From an uncultured Ignavibacteria bacterium (GTDB lineage Bacteria; Bacteroidota; Ignavibacteria; SZUA-365): a stretch of DNA of 64,000 bases. The stretch covers positions 124,001 through 188,000 of the forward strand of contig CAJXVM010000009.1 in the NCBI GenBank assembly GCA_913061095.1, read 5' to 3'. The notes under the pieces were generated by a model that was not told where the DNA came from, did no database searches, and saw nothing but the letters and a program-made list of their open reading frames with translations. Numbering within the stretch: position 1 is the first letter of the stretch; the number at the start of each line of letters is the position of its first letter. Shown here one piece after another: positions 11,230 through 19,036 of this stretch. The translations under genes and the position numbers were made by a program.

Positions 11230-11335
11230 GTTGTCACGTGCGCTAGCGACACGTGTAAGCGTGGCCGACCATACATTGTCACGAGCGGTATCCACACACG
11301 TGAGCGTGTGGTTGGACCGCGTGTCCCGCCCATTA
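11230..11335. repeat. Two copies of a REP-like hairpin element
   Basis: Two related segments of about 45 bp start at 11231 and 11275 with TTGTCACG. They share the order GCGSTA...CACACGTGTAAGCGTG or CCACACACGTGAGCGTGTGG with the element at 314-360. The second copy forms a stem CCACACAC/GCGTGTGG with a GTGA loop (one mismatch). The pair lies just before the ribosome site of the gene at 11356. Dispersed copies with a GTRA loop suggest a repetitive extragenic palindrome family. Confidence 0.65.
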
Positions 11336-11355: not shown

Positions 11356-11526
11356 ATGAGCCTCTTATCCAATGTTCTCGGCAACGCCGGGGCGATCGAA
11401 CCCGACAAACTCGACGCCGAACTCAAGATCTGGATCGGCAGCGATCCCATGCCCCTCTCGAAGAAATTCAACAAGAAAGTCAACATCTACGACCTGCAGA
11501 AAGTCCTCGCCGGGCATGTGGGGTGA
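11356..11526 (+). CDS. 56-aa protein preceding the nuclease-like gene
   Basis: ATG 11356 follows GAGGAG by 5 nt. The product is MSLLSNVLGNAGAIEPDKLD followed by a basic helical end (LSKKFNKKVNIYDLQKVLAGH). The first 20 residues resemble the N-terminal lead of YvbH-type bacterial PH-domain proteins, but the PH domain itself is absent. It ends three bases before the GTG of the nuclease-like gene, so the two are almost certainly co-translated. It could be an inhibitor, adaptor or truncated relic. Confidence 0.6.
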   Translation: MSLLSNVLGNAGAIEPDKLDAELKIWIGSDPMPLSKKFNKKVNIYDLQKVLAGHVG

Positions 11527-11529
11527 AGG

Positions 11530-12900
11530 GTGAAATATTCCAACCTCTTCTGGCACGAAGGCGTCAGGATATTCGAAGAACGCATGCTGGAGACAGCGAA
11601 GGGACAGCTTCGCATCCGGCACCTGGAGAATGACGTCACCAAGGCGCTGCTGAATGTATTCGAGCACGGCTCGGATGGCATCCTGCGCGCCTTCCTGCGC
11701 CTTGTCGGTGTGCGCGATGCGCCGGCATCCTTCCAGTATGATTTCCAGGTGACGGACACCGAGGCCTACCGCCAGCAGCCGCGGCGGATGATGCTCTCCA
11801 TCATTGCCGATTCCACGCAGGTGACGTCCAATCCTCGGTACCGCGTGGATACGAGCAGACCGGACGGCTGCATCTTCAACGAGCGCAGCGCCATCCTGAT
11901 CGAGGTGAAAACGCAGAGCCCGCTGGTGGAGGAGCAGATCGAGGGACATATCCGCGGCTATCTTGGCTCGGCCACCGAGCGGAGGACGATCACCTGGGAG
12001 GACATCAGCGATGCGTTTCGCCAGCTTCTCAGGCAGGGGAAGACGCGGGACGTGGATCGCCTGCTGCTTACGCATTTCCTCGGACTTCTGGAATTGCTCG
12101 GCATCGCGCGTTTCAACGGCTTCGCGGATAGCGATTTCGCGATGCAGGACGTCGCGGGGCGCATTCCCGACGAGGAGTTTCTCGATTTCCGCCGGCAGTT
12201 CATGCGCAAGGCCGAGAAGTTCACCGAGGGCGTGTACGAGGAGGTCCGCGATGCATTTCCCTTCCGCGCACTCGACTGGTATCCGCGCCGCGACCGCCGG
12301 GCGAATCTCACGGGCTGGACGGCCCTGTACTTCCACGACGGGGATCCAGGTCTGCCTGTGAATCACTATCCCAATATCAATTTCAATTTCCACACGGGTG
12401 GCATCGAATTGTCCCTCAACGGCGAAGTGCGTTCGTCACTCAACCGTTTCCTCGCGAAGATGAAGGCGGATCCCGACCGTTTCGACGCGCTCGTGCGGTC
12501 CCTCCCCGGCATGCATCTCGCCGTGTATTTCAAAATGCAGTATCGTCCCCAGGATCATTTCCGCTGGAAATTTCTGCCTGGCTATCCCGTGGACGTGCGG
12601 GAGGCGCATGCGGTGGATATCCTCACCGATATCGATCGTCTGAAGCAGGACTGGGAGAAACATCGCCGCACTATGCTCTTCGAGATGGAGAACGGCCTTG
12701 TGCTCAGTCGAGCGGGACGTCCCTTCACCGCCAACGAACTGGAGTTCGCTCTGGCGCGCAATCCACGTGCCAACTTCGCCTTCCGCATCGAAAAGCGCTA
12801 TCCCGCCGCGGACGTTGTGCAGATGAAAAAGCACGTCATCCGCCACATCGCGAAAGATGTGCGCAAGACCGCAGCGTTCATGAGGTTCGTCGTGGAGTGA
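11530..12900 (+). CDS. PD-(D/E)XK nuclease-like protein
   Basis: 456 aa with start GTG 11530, three bases after the previous stop and behind GTGGGGTG. Residues about 112-128 read PDGCIFNERSAILIEVKTQS: an aspartate, a strand, then the E-x-K triad of PD-(D/E)XK nucleases. An upstream glutamate-bearing helix (LRIRHLENDVTKALLNVFEH, residues 22-41) fits the first core helix of the fold. The C-terminal 250 residues are alpha/beta, with many charged and aromatic residues, and I do not recognise them. Its 56-aa upstream partner and the accessory neighbourhood suggest a defence role; that is inference. Confidence 0.6.
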   Translation: MKYSNLFWHEGVRIFEERMLETAKGQLRIRHLENDVTKALLNVFEHGSDGILRAFLRLVGVRDAPASFQYDFQVTDTEAYRQQPRRMMLSIIADSTQVTSNPRYRVDTSRPDGCIFNERSAILIEVKTQSPLVEEQIEGHIRGYLGSATERRTITWEDISDAFRQLLRQGKTRDVDRLLLTHFLGLLELLGIARFNGFADSDFAMQDVAGRIPDEEFLDFRRQFMRKAEKFTEGVYEEVRDAFPFRALDWYPRRDRRANLTGWTALYFHDGDPGLPVNHYPNINFNFHTGGIELSLNGEVRSSLNRFLAKMKADPDRFDALVRSLPGMHLAVYFKMQYRPQDHFRWKFLPGYPVDVREAHAVDILTDIDRLKQDWEKHRRTMLFEMENGLVLSRAGRPFTANELEFALARNPRANFAFRIEKRYPAADVVQMKKHVIRHIAKDVRKTAAFMRFVVE

Positions 12901-13447: not shown

Positions 13448-14791
13448 ATGGATGCGACAGTCATGATCATTGCAATTCTAGCCCTCATCGGAATCGCGGG
13501 TACAATCTGGTTTGGAGTAAAACTCGCGGCGGTCCGGAAGAAGTACAGAGGCATCATCGACATTGATGCCGCCGTTGCTGAGCGGCAGAACCAGGTCGAT
13601 GCAAGCGAAAAGCAGATTGAGGAGTTGAAAGCGGACTACAGAACGAAGAAAGAAGTGTACGAGCGCTTGGCGCACGATGTCTCTGTCCTCGAAGAAGATA
13701 TGGAGATGATCTCGTTCGGCATTTACAAACCACACTATGATTTTGATACTGCTGAGGATTTCAAAAATGCTCTAACTGATGTGCGAGCTCGCCAGAAGGA
13801 AATGATCAAGGTAAAGGAGGCGGCGAAGTGTACAACGCAATGGACCGTGGAAGGCAGCGCGAGCAAAGGGCGCACAATGACGAATAAATATATTCGTCTC
13901 ATGCTGCGGGCGTTCAATGGGGAAGCGGATGCGACGATCGCGAAGGTTCGGTGGGACAATATCACCAAGATGGAGGCCCGGCTGGAAAAAGCGTTCGAAG
14001 TCATCAACAAGACCGGTGAAGCCAATCACACATTCATAACGCAGGATTATCTGGATCTGAAACTGGAGGAACTGCGGCTCACATACGAATACCAGGTGAA
14101 ACGACACGAGGAGAAGGAGGAGCAGCGTCGAATAAAGGAAGAGATGAGGGAAGAGGAACGCGCCAGGAAGGAGTATGAAAAAGCACAGCGTGAAGCAGCA
14201 GCGGAGAAGGATCGATATGAGCGTGCTCTGGCGAAGGCCCGGGAAGAAGTGGAACAGGCTTCAGGTGAAAAGCAGGCGAAGCTTCGGGAGCAGATGGCGA
14301 AACTCGAGGCCCAGCTCGCAGAAGCGCTGGCCAAAGGGGAGCGCGCGAAATCCATGGCGGAACTCACGAAATGCGGTCATGTCTACGTGATTTCCAACAT
14401 TGGTTCATTTGGCGAGGATGTGTACAAAATCGGTCTCACCCGACGACTCGAGCCTCTCGAACGCGTCAAGGAGCTCGGTGACGCTTCGGTCCCGTTCGAT
14501 TTCGATGTGCATGCTCTGATGTACTCCGAAAATGCTCCTGAGCTCGAGAAAGAGCTGCACAAGGCATGCGAGGAACATCGCATCAACCTTGTCAATCTGC
14601 GGCGCGAGTTTTTCCGTGTGCCGCTGGCTGAGATTGAGAAAATTGCTCGAAAATTCAACACTGAAGTGAAATTCACAAAGCTCGCCGAAGCGAAGGAATA
14701 CCGGGAGAGTCAGGCCATGCGGCAGGCTGCAGCGTTTGCGAAACAGAAAGAAAAAGCGCCCGCTGAACCGGTGTTTCCTGATGAACTGTAA
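13448..14791 (+). CDS. Membrane-anchored coiled-coil protein with C-terminal GIY-YIG (T5orf172/MUG113-like) domain
   Basis: 447 aa. One N-terminal membrane segment (VMIIAILALIGIAGTIWFGV, residues 5-24) is followed by a DUF4041-like region with coiled coils (residues 35-80 and 195-300, rich in E, K and R). The C-terminal domain starts GHVYVISNIGSFGEDVYKIG and continues LTRRLEPLERVKELGDAS, which matches the GIY-YIG core of T5orf172 proteins: the two tyrosine motifs and the conserved arginine. The glutamate that binds metal would be in ELEKELHKACEE. Such proteins occur in phage and defence regions. GGAGG precedes ATG 13448. Confidence 0.8.
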   Translation: MDATVMIIAILALIGIAGTIWFGVKLAAVRKKYRGIIDIDAAVAERQNQVDASEKQIEELKADYRTKKEVYERLAHDVSVLEEDMEMISFGIYKPHYDFDTAEDFKNALTDVRARQKEMIKVKEAAKCTTQWTVEGSASKGRTMTNKYIRLMLRAFNGEADATIAKVRWDNITKMEARLEKAFEVINKTGEANHTFITQDYLDLKLEELRLTYEYQVKRHEEKEEQRRIKEEMREEERARKEYEKAQREAAAEKDRYERALAKAREEVEQASGEKQAKLREQMAKLEAQLAEALAKGERAKSMAELTKCGHVYVISNIGSFGEDVYKIGLTRRLEPLERVKELGDASVPFDFDVHALMYSENAPELEKELHKACEEHRINLVNLRREFFRVPLAEIEKIARKFNTEVKFTKLAEAKEYRESQAMRQAAAFAKQKEKAPAEPVFPDEL

Positions 14792-16233: not shown

Positions 16234-17760
16234 CTATGTGTCATCAGCGGAAATCTTGCGGTACGCTTCCTCAATGCGTTCGATGTCATCGGCTGAGATG
16301 AAGCTGAATTCCTTCTTCCTCGCGCGGGCGGAAAGCGTCCCGTTACCGTGTTCAAGAAAGCTGATGAGCAGGGTGTCAGTGCTGTCGGAAAATTCGAAGT
16401 GCTCCTCCAGCCAGGATTTCATCGCGTCGTGCCGACGCAGGATAGCGATCTCGGCCGGTAGCGTGCTCTCGACGGTCTGACGGACGCAGTCATACAGAAA
16501 TTCCGCCAGTGCTGTGGCGTCGAAGTAGCGATAGAGGTCGATGGTGTCGTTGTGGATGCGCACGTTGTAGTGTTCATCGGGTGACCACTCGATCAGGTTC
16601 AGCCGCGGCAGGGAGAAGGACTGCAGCACGCGGCGGTATTCGTCAATCCGTTCCAGCATGATGGATGAAACGGGGAAGATCAGGCCCTCATCACTGAAAC
16701 CTTTTGCGGCGAGCATGTGGTGGATGAGCCATCGGTGCAGTCGCCCGTTGCCGTCCACGAAGGGATGAATAAAAACAAAACCGAACGCGATGCCGACTGC
16801 GGCGATGACAGCATCCATATCCGCTGCTTCGAGCATTGTGGCGGTTTCTTCAAGTCCACCCATCAGCCGTTCGAGATCCTCGGCCTTCGCGGAGATGTGC
16901 TCCGGCAGTGGCTCATGCGTGAGCCTGTCGCGGTCGCCAATGAATCCCTCCCCGGTGCGATATCCCATACTGAAGGCCGGACGCGGAATCATCAGCTGTT
17001 GCAGACGCTCGAGCTCCGTCCGTGTGATCGGCGCACGTCCCGCCTGTCCGATCGCGGCCGCCCAGCGTTGCGCATGTCCGATAGTCGGTTTTTCTCCCTC
17101 AATGGCAAAGGATGCGCGCGAATCAGCGAGCATCAGAAAGGCCGCAGCACGCAGCAGGAGATCACTCGGTACATCACGGGTTTCACCGCGGATTTTCGAA
17201 GACAGGTTCATCGCGATGCAATTATCGAGCATTTCTGTCCGGTGGATCAGCGGACAGAAATCCACCGTTCCCGGAAGGTTGTTGCGGATTCCGTGACGCC
17301 GTGAATTCCGGGGCGGACCTGGGTACTGCAGATCCGGATCGACGAGATCGTAATAATCGCGCGTTCCGAGATCCGGAATATCGAGAACAGTATCCAGCAG
17401 CCATTCACAGAGGAACCACAGACGCCGGGCATATTGTCCCGTCGGCTCGCGACGGATCATCCCGGCGATGCGCTCGCTTCCCAGCAGCTCGCAAAGCACC
17501 TTGATCAGATGCAGATCGATCCCCTCATATTTCAGGGCGAACACGAGATGCTCGTACGGATCATCCTCCGGGCGATAGGGATCGTCGAACAGCAGCCAGT
17601 CACCCTCGCTGCGCCTTCCTCTTTTTCCGTCGATAAGTGCCAACCGCTGGGGAGGAGGAACCGCGAGCGCGTACTCCTGGATGAGCCATCCATACCCTGC
17701 CGCATATCCCTTTCGCGGAGCGGCACGGCCGAACATTGAACGAATGGGCCTGTTGTTCAT
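16234..17760 (-). CDS. Fic-domain protein AMP-transferase
   Basis: 508 aa from ATG 17760 (TTG 17775 would extend it into a repeat). The catalytic motif HPFVDGNGRLHR is at about residues 332-343, with the base histidine, phosphate-binding GNGR loop and arginine intact. An inhibitory helix SFAIEGE at about residues 217-223 fits the [S/T]xxxE[G/N] pattern that self-blocks class II Fic enzymes. Fic proteins usually transfer AMP to hydroxyl groups of target proteins. The N-terminal 200 residues resemble the Fic-associated region of long bacterial Fic proteins. Repeats occur on both sides and probably control expression. The target is unknown. Confidence 0.9.
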   Translation of the reverse strand: MNNRPIRSMFGRAAPRKGYAAGYGWLIQEYALAVPPPQRLALIDGKRGRRSEGDWLLFDDPYRPEDDPYEHLVFALKYEGIDLHLIKVLCELLGSERIAGMIRREPTGQYARRLWFLCEWLLDTVLDIPDLGTRDYYDLVDPDLQYPGPPRNSRRHGIRNNLPGTVDFCPLIHRTEMLDNCIAMNLSSKIRGETRDVPSDLLLRAAAFLMLADSRASFAIEGEKPTIGHAQRWAAAIGQAGRAPITRTELERLQQLMIPRPAFSMGYRTGEGFIGDRDRLTHEPLPEHISAKAEDLERLMGGLEETATMLEAADMDAVIAAVGIAFGFVFIHPFVDGNGRLHRWLIHHMLAAKGFSDEGLIFPVSSIMLERIDEYRRVLQSFSLPRLNLIEWSPDEHYNVRIHNDTIDLYRYFDATALAEFLYDCVRQTVESTLPAEIAILRRHDAMKSWLEEHFEFSDSTDTLLISFLEHGNGTLSARARKKEFSFISADDIERIEEAYRKISADDT

Positions 17761-17770
17761 GGTGCAAATC

Positions 17771-17868
17771 TGCAAAAAATAACCGCGGATTACAAAAAAT
17801 AACCGCGATTATATCGAGAATGCAATAAACAGATGTGAAAACATAGGGAATGCAAAAAACGGCCGCGA
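17771..17868 (-). promoter_or_regulatory. Helically phased repeat array over the Fic promoter
   Basis: Copies of TGCAAAAAAYRRCCGCGR start at 17771, 17791 and 17851, with a degenerate one (TGCAATAAACAG) at 17821. Spacings are 20, 30 and 30 bp, whole multiples of the DNA helical repeat. A TATAAT box reading toward Fic (complement of 17808-17813) sits between the second and third copies. The first copy ends 11 bp from the start codon. The layout suggests several protein molecules bound on one DNA face, over and downstream of the promoter, as in autorepression. Confidence 0.7.
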
Positions 17869-17960: not shown

Positions 17961-18007
17961 GAACGTGATCAAACCGAACATATGTGGTACGTCTTCGCGA
18001 GCGGGAA

Positions 18008-19036
18008 ATGAAAAACATCGTGATCTGCGCGGATGGCACATGGAACCGGCCCGAGGAGAACCTGGCCGAGGATGTGCCGACGAATGTGCTCAAGGTGGCG
18101 CGGGCCGTCGCGCCGGTGGACGACAAACGGCAGCACCAGGTGGTGTTCTATGACTGGGGGATCGGGTCGTATTACGATTCGGTCAAGGGCGGGGCGTTCG
18201 GCGACGGGATCAACAAGAACGTGATGGACTGCTACCGCTTCATCGTCCAGAATTATGATCCCGGCGATCAGCTGTATTTCTTCGGCTTCAGCCGCGGAGC
18301 ATACACGGTGCGCAGTCTGTCGGGACTCATATACAACTGCGGCATCCTGAAGCGCTGGCAGGCGAAGCGCATCGCACAGGCATATGAAATGTACCGGTCG
18401 CCGGACGTACATCCCGAATCGCAGGAGGCCGCCGACTATCGCAGGAAATATTCCGTCGCGTCGGATATCCGCGTGCGCTTCATCGGTGTGTGGGATACGG
18501 TCGGATCGCTCGGCATCCCGATCCGCATGCTGGGCTTCCTCAACGAGCGGCATTTGTTCCACGACAACAAGATCGGACCCAATGTGGACTGCGCCCGGCA
18601 CGCCCTCGCCATCGATGAACTGCGGGATGACTTTCGTCCCACCATCTGGAAGCAGCGCCGCGGCATGGATCTCAAGCAGGTGTGGTTCCCGGGCGTGCAC
18701 TCGGATGTGGGCGGGGGATACCGGCCCGGCCGTGGAGGGAAGACGCTCGCAGATATCCCGCTGAAATGGATTCTCGGCGAGGCCCGGAAAAACGGCCTGG
18801 AGGTGGAATCCCACCTGTTCTCAAAGCTCAAGCCCGATCCGCTGGCCGACCAGCACGAGGAATACGAGGGCTTTTTCAAGGTGCTCGGCAAGCACGAACG
18901 TCCCATCGCGCGCGGCACGTATCTGCATTCCAGCGTGCGGGAGCGCTACGAGGGGATGTCCTCATACCGCCCGCCAAAGCTGGTCGCGCATGTGAGGACA
19001 CACGGATGGAATCACCTGCTGAAAGCGGATACCTGA
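18008..19036 (+). CDS. DUF2235 alpha/beta hydrolase (Tle1 phospholipase-like)
   Basis: 342 aa. I chose ATG 18008 because the conserved opening KNIVICADGTWNRPEE starts there; GTG 17984 is the longer option. The nucleophile elbow GFSRGAYTVR (serine at about residue 101), the aspartate in FIGVWDTVGSLG and the histidine in PGVHSDVGGGY form the expected Ser-Asp-His triad. The family includes Tle1 type VI effectors that cleave phospholipids, but many members are free-standing and cytosolic. No VgrG, PAAR or immunity gene is adjacent. It is convergent with a four-gene cluster. The biological role is open. Confidence 0.85.
   Translation: MKNIVICADGTWNRPEENLAEDVPTNVLKVARAVAPVDDKRQHQVVFYDWGIGSYYDSVKGGAFGDGINKNVMDCYRFIVQNYDPGDQLYFFGFSRGAYTVRSLSGLIYNCGILKRWQAKRIAQAYEMYRSPDVHPESQEAADYRRKYSVASDIRVRFIGVWDTVGSLGIPIRMLGFLNERHLFHDNKIGPNVDCARHALAIDELRDDFRPTIWKQRRGMDLKQVWFPGVHSDVGGGYRPGRGGKTLADIPLKWILGEARKNGLEVESHLFSKLKPDPLADQHEEYEGFFKVLGKHERPIARGTYLHSSVRERYEGMSSYRPPKLVAHVRTHGWNHLLKADT

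Follow-up and report, generated by a model that had tools for sequence, protein, structure and literature searches.

The locus

The window, a stretch of 64,000 nucleotides from an uncultured Ignavibacteria bacterium, contains two ORFs on the plus strand that are separated by only three bases (Table 1). The first opens with ATG and encodes 56 aa, and the second opens with GTG and encodes 456 aa. In the larger product the tripeptide PDG occupies residues 111-113 and IEVKT residues 124-128, so the first-pass annotation had described this arrangement correctly. It had also called the small protein basic at its end, which is loose: the lysines are there, in the segment SKKFNKK, but they lie ~15-20 residues before the C-terminus. 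An open frame of 456 codons has a chance probability of ~1e-8 at the local base composition, and the frame is kept open, at 41-45% identity, in three homologous loci (L035, L037 and L038); it is therefore a real gene. The 56-aa ORF has its own start, stop and Shine-Dalgarno-like sequence, AGAGGAGA.

Just upstream of the 56-aa ORF there is a REP-like repeat (core GCGGTATCCACACGCGTGAGCGTGTGGT), copies of which are found on many contigs. A tandem array of the same repeat, with a period of ~72 bases, lies near G000:C21:30962-31349.

Table 1. Features of the two-ORF locus, numbered from the first nucleotide of the window
Feature	Position	Strand	Basis or remark
Copy of dispersed palindromic (REP-like) repeat	11285..11333	+	28-nt core GCGGTATCCACACRCGTGAGCGTGTGGT recurs on other contigs
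56-aa ORF, internally deleted bPH_1 (PF08000) remnant	11356..11526	+	Pfam and alignment to 14 homologues
Residues 1-18 of the 56-aa product, N-terminus of full-length bPH_1	11356..11409	+	Alignment, phmmer
Residues 19-56 of the 56-aa product, last 38 of bPH_1 (LDAELKIW ... NIYDLQKVLA)	11410..11523	+	Sequence match
456-aa ORF starting at GTG: PD-(D/E)XK nuclease, its C-terminal domain YktB/DUF1054-like	11530..12900	+	
N-terminal PD-(D/E)XK domain, residues 1-196	11530..12117	+	Two AlphaFold2 models
E33, acidic, first core helix, invariant	11626..11628	+	Alignment
D112, PD motif, invariant	11863..11865	+	Alignment
E125-V-K127, (D/E)XK motif, E and K invariant	11902..11910	+	Alignment
Q136, helix after the (D/E)XK strand, invariant	11935..11937	+	Alignment
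C-terminal domain, residues 194-456, YktB/DUF1054-like fold	12109..12897	+	Structure and profile match

The 56-aa ORF

The 56-aa product matches the bacterial PH-domain family bPH_1 (PF08000; E 6.8e-9, 36.2 bits, above the gathering cut-off of 27.7), and this match rules it out as an orphan gene. Only profile positions 86-122 of 122 are covered. A search of 296 genomes across the phylum found matches in 27 further genomes, beginning at query residue 14-19 and lying in frames of at least 126 residues, all of them longer than the 56-aa ORF. When 14 of these PH proteins, all full-length at 125-126 aa, were aligned with it, the first 18 and the last 38 residues of the small protein matched and ~68 core residues were absent, in frame. 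The product thus falls well short of the ~120 residues expected of a complete PH domain. A phmmer comparison with solved structures agrees, residues 3-47 of PDB 3hsa being matched weakly and residues 87-122 more clearly.

The sequence DKLDAELK at the junction is similar both to GKLAAEL in the N-terminal part and to DMDAELK in the C-terminal part of the full-length proteins, a likeness that points to a deletion between short stretches of similar sequence; the event was possibly an in-frame deletion between the segments coding for K-L-x-A-E-L and L-D-A-E-L-K. Alternatively, the ORF may have arisen by collapse of the PH gene during assembly. The bPH_1 fold consists of seven strands and a C-terminal helix (PMC2817789). 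The 56-aa ORF resembles this family (formerly DUF1696; PDB 3hsa and 3dcx) in its residues 1-18 and last 38, but it is without most of the strands of the published fold and so would be unable to form it. No other bPH_1 gene was found in the source genome or in 25 relatives, which makes it probable that the gene came in from elsewhere and suffered damage afterwards. The 56-aa ORF is the debris of a separate, probably horizontally acquired bPH_1 gene, and its product is probably no inhibitor.

The nuclease domain

The assignment of the 456-aa protein to the PD-(D/E)XK nucleases, made at first from the two short motifs, is now well supported. An alignment of 25 sequences, with identities down to 23%, shows E33, T37, K38, Q73, D112, E125, K127, Q136 and W156 to be invariant; the catalytic residues expected of the PD...(D/E)xK motif, D112, E125 and K127 together with E33 and Q136, are thus retained in distant phyla. 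The homologue from Aminicenantes (L036), which is not among the 25 aligned sequences, has an in-frame stop at L036:8214-8216, exactly at the otherwise invariant Q73.

Structure prediction, one of the checks proposed in the first-pass annotation, gave the expected core. An AlphaFold2 model of the whole protein, made with an alignment of 21 sequences, is confident (pLDDT 85.3, pTM 0.84), and so is a model of the N-terminal domain alone (pLDDT 86.1, pTM 0.84). The modelled domain has a helix at residues 26-46 that carries E33, a strand at 85-92, a strand at 113-116 with D112 just before it, a strand at 120-126 that contains E125 and is followed at once by K127, a helix at 134-145 with Q136, and a strand at 150-155. 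This is the alpha-beta-beta-beta-alpha-beta order of the PD-(D/E)XK core, and it is found in both models.

Direct comparison with solved structures is less telling. The PDB entries that lead in VIA-align, R2 endonuclease (Z 3.3), MspJI (Z 3.1) and Bax1 (Z 3.0), are weak matches that fall below a safe fold match, and Foldseek found no PDB match below E 0.001 for either model. Against viral models, two PD-(D/E)XK proteins were the best matches (probabilities 0.89 and 0.97). Profile comparison with a protein recognised by Pfam as PDDEXK_4 (L076) brings the TKAL, D and IExK motifs into register over 112 columns, and a second, unannotated nuclease-like family is matched at 96.9% probability.

The closest known proteins are PDDEXK_4 (PF14281) and the wider PD-(D/E)XK superfamily, e.g. 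HSDR_N_2 and VRR_NUC. In PDDEXK_4 the TKAL helix and the D and IExK motifs line up with those of the 456-aa family, but the C-terminal domain is a different one, and no member of the 456-aa family reaches the Pfam cut-off of PDDEXK_4: the protein itself has no match to PF14281, and four of the 25 relatives have sub-threshold matches, the best at E 0.045-0.048 and below the gathering cut-off. No other Pfam family reaches its cut-off on the 456-aa protein, no model in NCBIfam or PADLOC-DB 2.0 covers it, and PADLOC matches neither protein of the locus. A literature search for PDDEXK_4 gave no result.

The C-terminal domain

The remaining 300 residues, which the first-pass annotation could not assign, turn out to have a known fold. 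In VIA-align the C-terminal domain superposes on YktB (PDB 2a8e) with Z 17.0 over 192 residues at 2.9 A, and on a second DUF1054 structure (3mqz) with Z 15.6; both stand well above the rest, the next being 1yb3 at Z 8.7. The relationship is also seen in sequence profiles, hmmsearch matching 2a8e with E 1.2e-6 for the full alignment and E 4e-4 for the C-terminal domain alone. The 456-aa protein has no match to DUF1054 (PF06335) at the Pfam gathering cut-off, and one relative has a match of E 0.009. The likeness concerns the C-terminal 263 residues. YktB itself, at ~210 residues, stands alone and has no nuclease domain, and the identity is ~10%. In the listed papers on DUF1054/YktB the mentions are passing ones only.

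The two domains differ in how well they are conserved. In close homologues the N-terminal domain is 51-58% identical and the C-terminal domain 34-36%; in distant homologues the figures are 24-35% and 8-19%, and in the Bacillus relatives the C-terminal part is much shorter. A conserved catalytic part joined to a variable second part is the pattern of restriction-type enzymes, and the C-terminal domain probably chooses the target of the nuclease.

Distribution and neighbourhood

The closest homologues come from the same order (L002/L035, 45% identity) and from three other phyla (L036 from Aminicenantes, L037 from Desulfobacterales and L038 from KSB1, 42-43%); their neighbourhoods bear no relation to one another, and no partner is constant among them. 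A further 22 loci at 22-32% identity include representatives from Bacillus, Chloroflexi, Planctomycetes and a Lokiarchaeon. The gene was absent from the four congeners searched, and in genome G004 the upstream winged-helix gene is kept and then followed by unrelated sequence. Searches of IMG/VR and INPHARED found no viral or phage relatives, and there is one plasmid relative, in Cytobacillus. The 456-aa protein defines a cross-phylum nuclease family in which a PD-(D/E)XK domain is combined with the YktB/DUF1054 fold and which is uncatalogued in Pfam, NCBIfam and PADLOC as searched.

The accessory, defence-like setting proposed for the locus is plausible. A homologue of SNIPE/PD-Lambda-1 (DUF4041 and GIY-YIG with a hydrophobic N-terminus; PADLOC E 9.6e-174) is encoded at 13448-14791, and a Fic-domain protein of the PADLOC candidate family PDC-S24 (E 9.4e-175) on the minus strand at 16234-17775, both within 5 kb; an ASCH protein is also found in this neighbourhood. 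As a membrane nuclease, SNIPE cleaves the DNA of a phage while this DNA is being injected (PMC13190303). Its homologue here adjoins the 456-aa gene and is likewise a stand-alone nuclease, but it is a GIY-YIG, DUF4041 membrane protein with no sequence relation to the 456-aa protein. Further along, 17984-19036 encodes a catalytic domain of phospholipase type that is Tle1-like (PF09994, E 1e-87).

Elsewhere the surroundings are mixed. The neighbours are DUF3179 and CoA-binding proteins in L035, a Usp protein in L038, and HNH and DUF6946 proteins in L037; with such mixed neighbourhoods among the four close homologues no defence enrichment is established. A PADLOC scan of 81 neighbours, made without a control set, found scattered defence families. 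One distant homologue (L005:528-3439) has a PDC-S14 GIY-YIG protein on one side and a uracil-DNA-glycosylase-like protein on the other, in a tight run that is perhaps an operon.

A solitary nuclease beside gene debris

The nuclease in an accessory region stands; the two-gene unit of the first-pass annotation does not. On balance we favour the view that the 456-aa protein acts on its own as a metal-dependent PD-(D/E)XK nuclease of a restriction or anti-phage type, encoded by a mobile accessory gene, and that the 56-aa ORF next to it is bPH_1 debris. E33, D112 and E125 of the N-terminal domain would bind Mg2+, and K127 and Q136 would complete an active site with which this domain cuts DNA, the most likely substrate. 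The YktB-like domain would recognise either the substrate or a trigger, so that a solitary nuclease would cut foreign DNA with its choice of target residing in that domain.

A special case of this explanation, which we think unlikely though worth stating, is a modification-dependent (Type IV-like) restriction enzyme whose YktB-like domain reads modified phage bases; that its PD-(D/E)XK domain cuts near those bases is doubtful to the same degree. A single protein with no methyltransferase partner and a fast-diverging C-terminal domain would fit such an enzyme, and the modification-dependent MspJI is among the weak matches to the N-terminal domain. Several entries for the DNA-binding domain of McrB also match the C-terminal domain at Z ~5, but this is the level reached in the same list by unrelated proteins such as CapZ, and we know of no function of DUF1054 in favour of base reading.

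That the solitary nuclease serves DNA repair, recombination or a mobile element and has no part in defence is likewise improbable, at about one chance in five. Such a role would suit the close homologues that sit beside HNH proteins or ordinary genes, and the uracil-DNA-glycosylase-like gene adjoining the distant homologue in L005. The patchy cross-phylum spread and the absence from congeners are unlike a housekeeping repair gene, however, and the neighbours in the window are of a defence type.

Rather less probable still is a function for the 56-aa ORF itself, either as a mini-protein made from the two PH ends or as a leader whose translation is coupled to expression of the nuclease. The ORF is in frame, has a good Shine-Dalgarno-like sequence and stops three bases before the GTG of the nuclease gene, which lacks a strong, well-spaced Shine-Dalgarno sequence of its own. 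As only a single copy is known, selection for keeping it is not visible, and close nuclease homologues do without any such leader gene. At most, the ribosome-binding site, start and stop of the 56-aa ORF would deliver ribosomes to the GTG just after them.

That the two genes form a toxin/inhibitor module, the 56-aa protein binding the nuclease and holding it in check, is very improbable in spite of their three-base spacing on the same strand, since the small product retains the start and the end of a PH-domain protein but has lost its core, and the comparative loci speak against the pairing in both directions: no PH gene occurs among all ORFs of the 26 nuclease-homologue loci (or of L002), and a nuclease profile search of 14 full-length PH loci found no match. 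The two genes are therefore not conserved together as those of a toxin-antitoxin or effector-inhibitor module would be. The first-pass annotation had itself named homologues without the small gene, in housekeeping contexts, as grounds for giving up the pairing, and the first half of that description applies at 26/26 loci.

Recognising the apparent gene pair as a nuclease beside gene debris averts a false toxin/antitoxin annotation. With the nuclease considered by itself, the joining of a PD-(D/E)XK domain to the YktB fold suggests that this fold can serve in the recognition of nucleic acid or another target. It is a long shot that a DNA reader of the YktB/DUF1054 fold, possibly of modified phage bases, makes up with the PD-(D/E)XK domain an uncatalogued single-protein restriction system; if true, the YktB/DUF1054 fold, so far uncharacterised, would gain a function.
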